Origin: Bacteriovoracales bacterium | GTDB taxonomy: Bacteria; Bdellovibrionota; Bacteriovoracia; Bacteriovoracales; Bacteriovoracaceae | NCBI GenBank assembly: GCA_026713835.1 | Contig: JAPONP010000059.1 | Span: 1 to 32,856, forward strand | DNA: 32,856 bases | Direction of reading: 5' to 3' | Shown here: one piece after another, positions 1-24,313 of the stretch | Layout: each line of letters begins with the position of its first letter | Numbering within the stretch: the stretch's first letter is position 1 | Program-made: the position numbers and the translations under genes | The notes under the pieces: model-generated | The model's database searches: none | Told to the model about the DNA's origin: nothing | Seen by the model: the letters and a program-made list of their open reading frames with translations, nothing else

Positions 1-135
1 AAGGCAAGGTAACTGTTCTCCACCCGGATAAGATTGGTAGGAGGCAACGAGGAGCGACCGAGGCGTGCTTCCTGCACGTCGCAGGGAAGCGACGAGGCAG
101 TCGACTGCCAAGATTGCCGGGGGGTGAGCAGTTAC
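1..135 (+). repeat. GTAACT-bounded palindromic element, copy A (left end cut by the window edge)
   Basis: This is the longest of three related copies; the others are at 5686-5781 and 23542-23657. It starts inside the shared left flank (AAGGCAAGGTAACTG) and ends at AGTTAC, 130-135. The outer arms around 9-38 and 101-135 are imperfect inverted repeats: GTAACTG, then a C-rich stretch, then CCCGG. Relative to the 23542 copy it carries 53 extra bases at 47-99, bounded by direct GAGGCA repeats (41-46 and 94-99). The extra part can form its own hairpin, with arms at about 66-74 and 82-90. No protein is encoded. It lies just upstream of the thiolase, where it could act as a terminator or RNA-processing site for whatever lies to the left. 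That function is inferred. Confidence 0.75.
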
Positions 136-4893: not shown

Positions 4894-5071
4894 AGAGCCT
4901 ATCCCAAAACCACCTTCGTTATGAAAGCGAGCGAAATTGTGCCCGGCAAGGATGAAAGCAAAAAATGTCTGAAGGCGTGCTTGTGGCACGTTGAGGGCAT
5001 TTTTTGCTTAAAGACGAAGCCCGGCACAATTGCAGCCGGTTGCAATAGAAGGTGGTTTTGGGATAGGCTCT
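4894..5071. repeat. 178-bp palindromic (MITE-like) element with 24-bp perfect terminal inverted repeats
   Basis: The terminal arms 4894-4917 and 5048-5071 are exact reverse complements over 24 bases, beginning AGAGCCTATCCCAAAACC. Inner parts also pair: AATTGTGCC with GGCACAATT, and AGCAAAAAATG with CATTTTTTGCT, closing on a small CGTGC/GCACG hairpin near 4978-4990. The whole element can fold into one long imperfect hairpin. It has no coding capacity that looks real; an open frame across it (4846-5124) is an accident of the repeat. The ends resemble those of IS5-type elements in style, but no transposase is present and that link is a guess. Similar single arms occur at 5668 and 19327, each directly after a TAA stop codon. 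Confidence 0.8.
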
Positions 5072-5669: not shown

Positions 5670-5685
5670 GAGCCTGTCCTAAAAG

Positions 5686-5781
5686 GTAACTACTCGCACC
5701 TCTAGCAAAAACTGTAATAAAGGCAAGGTAACTGCCACGGAAGCGCGAGAGCGGTGACGCGCCAAATGGGTGAGCAGTTAC
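5686..5781 (+). repeat. GTAACT-bounded palindromic element, copy B
   Basis: This 96-bp copy runs from GTAACT (5686) to AGTTAC (5776-5781). Its first 49 bases (5686-5734) are identical to the reverse complement of 23609-23657. The middle is shorter and different from the other copies, with internal pairing between GGAAGCGCGA and neighbouring GC-rich bases. It fills nearly the whole gap between two convergent genes, ending two bases before the last codon of the minus-strand one. That position suits a bidirectional terminator or a REP-like mRNA-stabilising hairpin. There is no T-run typical of an intrinsic terminator. Confidence 0.78.
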
Positions 5782-5782
5782 C

Positions 5783-6415
5783 CTAAAAGTGGCAAACATC
5801 GTGGAATGAAACCTTCTTCCCGAAAAGAAGGTGACGTTCCCAATGTTTTTTCTCCATGCGCACGACCTCATCACCGATCAGAGTTATATTGAGATAGTAG
5901 GTCGAGTTATATTCCGCAAAGGCGGCATCCTCATCCAGGGGGCGAAGCTCAATAACTCTCTCGTCTCCATCCACATGAACCGTGAGCCATTCTATGTCGG
6001 AGATGGGGTCTTTTTCCGTGGCCGGTCTTCCAAAATGGATATCCAGGCTAAAGGACTCGGGAGAGGTCAAGACCATTTCCAAGATCGGGTCCGTAACTTC
6101 CAATTTTCCGATGGAAGCGGAAGCCGAACTGCTACGAGAAGACTCTTCAAACCAGAGATTAAACAAAGCGGCCTTCCTTTCATCGGCCCAGTCGGTGGTC
6201 CCCCAACTGTCTCTCAAAACCGTCAAGGCACATTCGCCTCCATATTCTTCGGAAGCGGAGCTTATCCAAGAGTGAACTTCCGTAGGATTATCTCCCGGGC
6301 GTTTATTCAAATCCGTCATGGCCAAGATGTCTTCGTAGAGACCCCAAGACTCGGCAGAAGCGATCCCACCCCATGAGAGGGAAAAAAGAAGGATAAAATG
6401 GAATAGAGAACTCAT
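5783..6415 (-). CDS. Exported protein of unknown function
   Basis: The product has 210 residues. The N-terminus MSSLFHFILLFSLSWGGIASA is a signal peptide with a clear AxA cleavage site, so the protein is exported, probably to the periplasm. The mature part is acidic and has a cysteine in GGECALTVL and one near the C-terminus in HDVCHF, possibly disulfide-bonded. No known domain was recognised. Two in-frame ATGs exist, at 6427 and 6415. The second is preferred because TGAGG lies six bases before it, and that SD overlaps the first ATG. It is a single gene, convergent with the gene ending at 5669. Codon choice is less GC-biased than in the metabolic operons, as in the other exported proteins here. 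Confidence 0.7.
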   Translation of the reverse strand: MSSLFHFILLFSLSWGGIASAESWGLYEDILAMTDLNKRPGDNPTEVHSWISSASEEYGGECALTVLRDSWGTTDWADERKAALFNLWFEESSRSSSASASIGKLEVTDPILEMVLTSPESFSLDIHFGRPATEKDPISDIEWLTVHVDGDERVIELRPLDEDAAFAEYNSTYYLNITLIGDEVVRMEKKHWERHLLFGKKVSFHDVCHF

Positions 6416-6599
6416 GATAAACCTCATTTTTTTTGAGTTATAAACCTATAGAGAAAGCCACCCTATCCTTATGGGGAGGGGGAGATCAAGACAGTCGGTA
6501 AAAATTATAGGATTTGAGAATAAAGTGTTGAGTTTTTTCTTAAATCCGAATAATAGTCATCTCACCATTGCATTGAAACCACGAACAAAGGAACCCGTC

Positions 6600-23529: not shown

Positions 23530-23541
23530 GGTGACTTTTTA

Positions 23542-23657
23542 GTAACTGCTCACCCCCCGGCAATCTTGGCAGTCGACTGCCTCCTACCAATCTTATCCGG
23601 GTGGAGAACAGTTACCTTGCCTTTATTACAGTTTTTGCTAGAGGTGCGAGTAGTTAC
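23542..23657 (-). repeat. GTAACT-bounded palindromic element, copy C (complete)
   Basis: This 116-bp copy is in the opposite direction to copies A and B. It begins GTAACT and ends AGTTAC. Bases 23609-23657 equal the reverse complement of 5686-5734 over 49 positions. The rest equals copy A without its 53-bp middle; the joint is at GAGGCA/GTCGAC. The two arms next to the AGTCGACT centre pair imperfectly over about 30 bases. It lies exactly between convergent genes (stops at 23527-23529 and 23663-23665), like copy B. Confidence 0.85.
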
Positions 23658-23662
23658 ACTTT

Positions 23663-24244
23663 TTAAGCAAAGACCTTGGGTTGAAACTTTGAACTATTGG
23701 TGATACTCGCACTATTTCCGGTGGCCCGAATAACGAAGAGGCCCTTCTTTTCTGAATTTTTACCGGCCCCCTCATTGGCCTTGAGGTAGGCCACGGCCCC
23801 AAAAATTTTTCGATCCTTGTATTCCGGAAAGACCTTTTTAAAGTGTTGAAGCTTTTCAATAAAGTGATCAACATCCTTAACAGATAGGGTTGTTTTAACC
23901 TCAACGACGACGACTTCGCTACCGTTGATTGCAATAAGGTCATATTCGTATTCCTTACCATCAATTTCGTCGCTGGTGACTTGGGCCAGCCTGTTGACTT
24001 GAACACCTCTTTCCTGGAGAAGCTTAACCAAATCCCCCCGAACGAGACTTTCTATCAATTTGCCCCATTGCCCGGTAAAAAGGTTGTCGAGATAACGAAT
24101 ACGTTTTTTGTTCTCCTCAATTTGACGGTCGGTTTCCTTGGCCATTTCTTTGATTTGGCGGTCGGTTTCCTTCTGGGCCTCTCCCAACTGCCGGATAATC
24201 TCCCATGCGTCATCTAATGTCGCTTTTTTTACAGCTTTTGCCAT
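23663..24244 (-). CDS. DUF3782-like coiled-coil protein with a PD-(D/E)XK nuclease-type domain
   Basis: The 193-residue product starts at ATG 24244, with AAGGG eight bases before it; 23 further upstream residues in the open frame are not supported. Residues 25-50 are a short coiled coil built from an 11-residue repeat (KETDRQIKEMA, KETDRQIEENK), visible as a 33-bp DNA repeat near 24123-24175. The rest holds YEYDLIAINGSEVVVVEVKTT, with Asp102 and Glu115-x-Lys117, the restriction-endonuclease-fold pattern. Proteins like this are frequent in cyanobacteria and other genomes as mobile singletons with varying numbers of coiled-coil repeats; their role is not known. It is more AT-rich than its neighbours, as is the AAA gene at 7484, which suggests transfer. 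It is a single gene next to a GTAACT element. Confidence 0.82.
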   Translation of the reverse strand: MAKAVKKATLDDAWEIIRQLGEAQKETDRQIKEMAKETDRQIEENKKRIRYLDNLFTGQWGKLIESLVRGDLVKLLQERGVQVNRLAQVTSDEIDGKEYEYDLIAINGSEVVVVEVKTTLSVKDVDHFIEKLQHFKKVFPEYKDRKIFGAVAYLKANEGAGKNSEKKGLFVIRATGNSASITNSSKFQPKVFA

Positions 24245-24313
24245 AAATATACCCTTGATAAATTGTCTTGGAGTATAGCACAAAAAGGAAATGAGAGGTG
24301 GAAAAACGGACAA

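Follow-up and report, generated by a model that had tools for sequence, protein, structure and literature searches.

The palindromic repeats in this stretch of Bacteriovoracales DNA are best explained as copies of a mobile, high-copy MITE of the IS66 family with ISBst12-like ends, and we put the probability of this explanation, taken as a whole, at about 88%. The element has a testable property that is unreported in the literature searched, namely that its tips would double as stop codons. Surviving copies sit mostly at the 3' ends of genes, often with the stop codon within the duplicated 8 bp, as the statistics of their sites show.

The window is the whole stretch analysed, 32,856 nucleotides, and makes up the entire contig C59 of a 2.34-Mb draft genome (G000) in 235 contigs. 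It contains seven tip-like matches; in 100 shuffles there were 1.1 on average and never more than 4. The true tips of the family are GTAACTRCTCGCACC...GGTGAGCAGTTAC; read inward, the right tip is GTAACTGCTCACC and the left tip GTAACTRCTCGCACC. The first-pass annotation described three copies with GTAACT/AGTTAC ends. This is correct for copies B and C, which also share the 49-bp identical block that it reported; copy A is not bounded by GTAACT. Its motif at base 9 is the internal repeat, and the contig start has cut off the true left end, which in the 169-bp type lies 34 bp beyond that motif. The GAGGCA-bounded 53-bp module seen in copy A and missing from copy C holds up. That reading missed the perfect 8-bp target duplications of copies B (CCTAAAAG) and C (ACTTTTTA), each of which includes the stop codon of the adjoining minus-strand ORF (Table 1).

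Table 1. Element copies, their parts and their target duplications in the window (contig C59).
Positions	Strand	Feature	Match or label
1..135	+	Copy A: final 135 bp of a 169-bp-type element, truncated by the contig start	C59:26-135 matched
47..99	+	53-bp module including the second GAGGCA (first GAGGCA at 41-46); deleted in 116-bp copies	arms I2, I3
126..135	-	Right tip of copy A, GTAACTGCTC inward	
5678..5685	.	Left 8-bp target duplication of copy B, CCTAAAAG	
5686..5781	+	Copy B: complete element, 96 bp	
5782..5789	.	Right 8-bp target duplication of copy B, CCTAAAAG; contains the TAG stop (5783-5785) of minus-strand ORF 5783-6427 (d=3)	
23534..23541	.	8-bp target duplication of copy C, ACTTTTTA	
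23542..23657	-	Copy C: complete element, 116 bp; left end at 23657	
23658..23665	.	Other target duplication of copy C, ACTTTTTA; contains the TAA stop (23663-23665) of minus-strand ORF 23663-24313 (d=-1)	

Three further observations concern the window itself. In the thiolase ORF 164-1228, the match to Thiolase_C (123 positions) ends after position 48, and an overlapping ORF in another frame (1015-1416) comes next, perhaps through a frameshift. A perfect 24-bp inverted repeat, AGAGCCTATCCCAAAACCACCTTC, lies at 4894-4917 and 5048-5071, 130 nt apart; similar words (GGTTTTGGGATAGGC) adjoin several element copies elsewhere in the genome and may belong to another repeat family. The ORF beside copy C (23663-24313, minus strand) has a weak, above-cut-off match to the Holliday junction resolvase Hjc (PF01870, 1e-6).

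The element is short (89-187 bp), has no coding capacity and carries an IS66-type tip (GTAA...), compared with an intact IS66 element of a relative and with ISDge4, both described below. Its terminal inverted repeats, GTAACTGCTCGCACC and GTAACTGCTCACCCC, match at 13 of 15 bases. In the 169-bp consensus, a 42-bp left block leads into an inner palindrome that opens with a second GTAACTG and closes at the right tip. This palindrome forms a hairpin (z -2.7 and -2.5 against shuffles), although that of copy B is no better than its own shuffles (z -1.2). A diverged copy at G000:C209:14019-14146 starts at the inner GTAACTG, between near-identical 8-mers (AAAAGTGG/GAAAGTGG). From this single copy we infer an order of events: the original form may have been a compact element with two ends, to which the left block and its second tip were added later. 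No Rfam family matched in the window, and when the complete copies B and C were scanned for promoters and terminators, nothing rose above shuffles.

The middles of the copies had been read as swapped modules. In the 116-bp type, the 53 bp between the GAGGCA repeats are missing in 10/10 copies, and the four copies of 89 bp have lost a further 27 bp, between AAGATTG repeats. The size classes of the main subfamily are thus nested deletions between short direct repeats, as by replication slippage, and swapping of the middles is not supported. The middle of copy B, previously called unrelated, equals that of the 187-bp type (G000:C16) minus 91 bp between ACTGCCA repeats, with three mismatches; it stems from a second, related subfamily through the same sort of deletion.

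As the first-pass annotation had expected from three copies, the number in the genome is high. Across the 2.34 Mb, the left tip motif occurs 88 times and the right one 87 times, with no match to the reversed-pattern control of either; a looser tip pattern gives 183 matches against 4 in its control. Pairing the matches to the strict patterns gives 36 complete copies. A census of fetched stretches with looser ends found 41 complete copies (22 of 169 bp, 10 of 116, 4 of 89, 2 of 109, and one each of 90, 96 and 187), together with 47 left and 42 right halves at contig ends, which amounts to about 90 near-identical copies. One 169-bp element thereby breaks up the assembly, with 89 half copies at the contig ends of the 235-contig draft.

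These copies carry their own target duplications. In an initial set of 34 complete copies, the 8-bp flanks are identical in 27 and agree at 7 or more of 8 bases in 30, against a match in none of 1122 mismatched flank pairs; no other repeat length of at least 5 recurs, bar one 9-mer. In the census, the duplication is exact in 31 of 41 complete copies, matches at 7 or more bases in 35, and is missing from 6. Two of the copies without it, C16 and C177:1075, share their right flanks with the left flanks of half copies at C216 and C200; this looks like the joining of two copies, whether through recombination or during assembly. Among the half copies, 21 pairs rejoin via an identical 8-mer, whereas a one-base register shift gives none and a reverse-complement control gives 2 (1974 pairings); the duplications therefore allow contigs to be rejoined, that is, scaffolding across a MITE. 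A/T runs are over-represented within the duplication, and a preference for stop trinucleotides there was tested and is absent. A second genome behaves in the same way. The Oligoflexia bacterium isolate nN3bin31 (G019, JADGAN010000019.1; a Bdellovibrionota MAG of the same family and another genus) has its own 106-bp MITE with GTAACTGCTCACACC tips, of which there are 112, and 28 of its 39 complete copies have an exact 8-bp duplication (mismatched pairs 0/1482).

Where the copies sit relative to genes was one of the checks proposed earlier, and the answer is that they concentrate at stop codons. Genes were called by a simple script that scores codons rather than by a standard gene finder. We reconstructed the empty sites and analysed 54 of the 56 duplication-confirmed sites (flanks of at least 250 nt), leaving out the 6 duplication-less complete copies and the 47 unpaired halves. 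A stop codon lies within 8 nt of 24 of the 54 sites, against 1.2% of all control positions. In nN3bin31, where site and phase analyses used 30 of the 39 complete copies (duplication match of at least 7/8), 9 of 28 sites are near a stop, against 6.9% of 479. The unpaired halves, outside the 54-site set, agree: a gene stop falls within 12 nt of the tip in 13 of 47 flanks, where 0.40 are expected. An IS-element survey places IS66 among the families over-represented between convergent genes (PMC9208149).

It is slightly better than an even bet that this concentration reflects survival alone, with other insertions purged, the 3' ends left as the safe remainder and the stop itself untargeted. Only 3 of the 54 sites fall deep inside a gene, where 78% of all control positions are found, and the excess in the half copies fades smoothly over about 40 nt (16, 6, 7 and 3 flanks per 13-nt bin), both of which fit such purging. 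Against it, the 17-nt zone around the stop holds half of the non-coding sites (18/36) but only 5.3% of 1423 target-matched, equally AT-rich positions, and start codons have no such excess (1/54 and 0/30 sites).

The reading phase of the insertions bears on the same question. In the closing phase (G-TAA), TA and the tip's G give TAG, or a codon ends in the tip's G and TAA follows. Insertions 5-17 nt before a gene end have this phase in 12/12 cases in the window's genome and 4/4 in nN3bin31; that is, 16/16 insertions in the last 17 nt, in two genera, share one phase. The target-weighted expectation is 33% (282 gene ends) and 32% (59), respectively, and some of these control gene ends may themselves be element-closed. 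Over the last 45 nt, 17 of 20 are in closing phase, and the three exceptions (19, 31 and 37 nt) read into or through the element. Among all ORFs running into tips, the closing phase holds for 13/20 at confirmed sites of the window's genome and 4/5 in nN3bin31. The pattern is post hoc, as it was first noticed in the window's genome within 8 nt, and longer distances and nN3bin31 were examined later. The unpaired halves did not confirm it: an ORF runs into the tip in 5 of 47 flanks, with closing phase in 1/5. Half copies give no distance to the original stop; thus, these may be mid-gene hits.

Considering that a transposase cannot read frame, the phase bias is likely to stem from selection, a point that also speaks for survival alone. 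We tentatively propose, at less than even odds, that the invariant GTAA tip of IS66-type elements is a portable stop, and that this is a reason for its conservation. The tip's G-TAA would serve as the stop codon, insertion in the last codons would be harmless in one phase only (TA/G or NNG TAA), and selection would then leave the bias observed. As landing in or just before a stop re-forms one, such elements could settle at the ends of genes almost without harm to the host's protein, and may even favour these sites. If the tip really is a stop codon, the conservation of IS66 ends may partly reflect host tolerance and not transposase binding alone. The family illustrates how a non-autonomous element can multiply to about 90 copies within 2.3 Mb while disrupting few genes. 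Searches of open-licence PMC papers turned up neither a MITE family derived from IS66 nor a role of IS66 tips as stop codons, and the MITE review PMC10969869 leaves IS66 unmentioned. By eye, we also noted a 40-odd-bp element with GTAACTGCCCACACC/GGTGCGAGCAGTTAC ends at an ORF end in a third genus (genome G287, L150:1475-1516), where the TAA of the element tip seems to serve as the ORF's stop.

A search for a transposase with the same ends, also proposed earlier, succeeded in the relative and not at home. The window's own 235-contig draft yielded no intact IS66 transposase, only PF03050 fragments at the contig ends of C231 and C104 with no such tips nearby; thus, the partner has to be inferred, and an IS66 transposase presumably moved the MITE copies. 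Another genus of the family does carry intact IS66 elements; one of them, in nN3bin31 (L162:1371-2937, 1567 bp), has near-identical tips, GTAACTACTCACCCCC, a duplication, AGGATAAC, and a single 481-aa transposase (PF03050 4.6e-38, NF033517 6.2e-69). In the same genome, L166 (G019:C72) is an IS66 relic with GTAACTGCTCACTCCC tips and the 106-bp MITE inserted inside, and a supposed 2.7-kb element with both tips at G019:C45 was rejected as two separate MITEs flanking unrelated genes. The Deinococcus element ISDge4, of the ISBst12 group of IS66, is reported to have been caught moving; its tips, GTGACTACTCAGCA/GTAACTGCTCAGCA, are nearly the same, and it has an 8-bp repeat (PMC12898284). The 8-bp target duplication is described as an IS66 feature (PMC11946415, PMC12898284). 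The missing intact partner would allow a MITE of some other 8-bp-duplicating DDE family whose tips became IS66-like through convergence; this is improbable, since about 11 tip bases are identical to those of the full-length IS66 element of the same bacterial family, and likewise to ISDge4. Among genomes of the phylum, the tip pattern matches 5 of 290, in number only the window's genome and nN3bin31, and the whole-element pattern matches 2 of 368, the same two. None of 58 other genomes from the family or phylum matches the 116-bp copy, and a 20-base block of the left end had no exact match in the named genomes and viral contigs scanned.

REP/BIME-type palindromes spread by a RAYT (HUH, Y1) transposase, which the first-pass annotation had offered beside MITEs, are very unlikely. 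Short extragenic palindromic units near gene ends with a strong hairpin (z -2.7 and -2.5) are what this would look like, but copy B reaches only -1.2, and the fixed GTAAC tips recur on an IS66 element in a related genus. Such 8-bp target duplications are characteristic of DDE transposases, not of REP/RAYT elements. Given the exact duplications in 31 of 41 complete copies (27/34 against 0/1122 in the first set), the REP/BIME part of that suggestion is unsupported, and the MITE part stands. A local duplication, which the lack of further copies would have implied, or an assembly artefact is hardly credible: contig ends do cut many copies (47 left and 42 right halves) and the C16 and C177 copies look joined, but the copies stand in unrelated flanks and have duplications of their own.

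Among known systems, the MITE of the window is closest to the ISBst12 group of IS66 (ISDge4 and the nN3bin31 element at L162:1371-2937), with which it shares GTAACT(A/G)CTC tips and the 8-bp target duplication. It differs from these elements in size (89-187 bp against about 1.5 kb), in having no gene where the nN3bin31 element has one transposase gene, and in an additional GTAACT repeat, 42 bp in from its left tip; no internal similarity was found. The 106-bp MITE of nN3bin31 is alike in its GTAACTGCTCAC tips, 8-bp duplications, and stop-codon position and phase, and unlike in its other middle, its two symmetric ends and the absence of the left extension. MITECca01 of Cardinium cOegib is likewise described as IS-derived, intergenic and the most abundant mobile element of its genome, although it derives from IS982 and has an intact parent IS in the same genome (PMC9769881). 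REP/BIME elements are similarly palindromic, extragenic and of high copy number; the MITE of the window is set apart from them by its target duplications and IS66-type tips.
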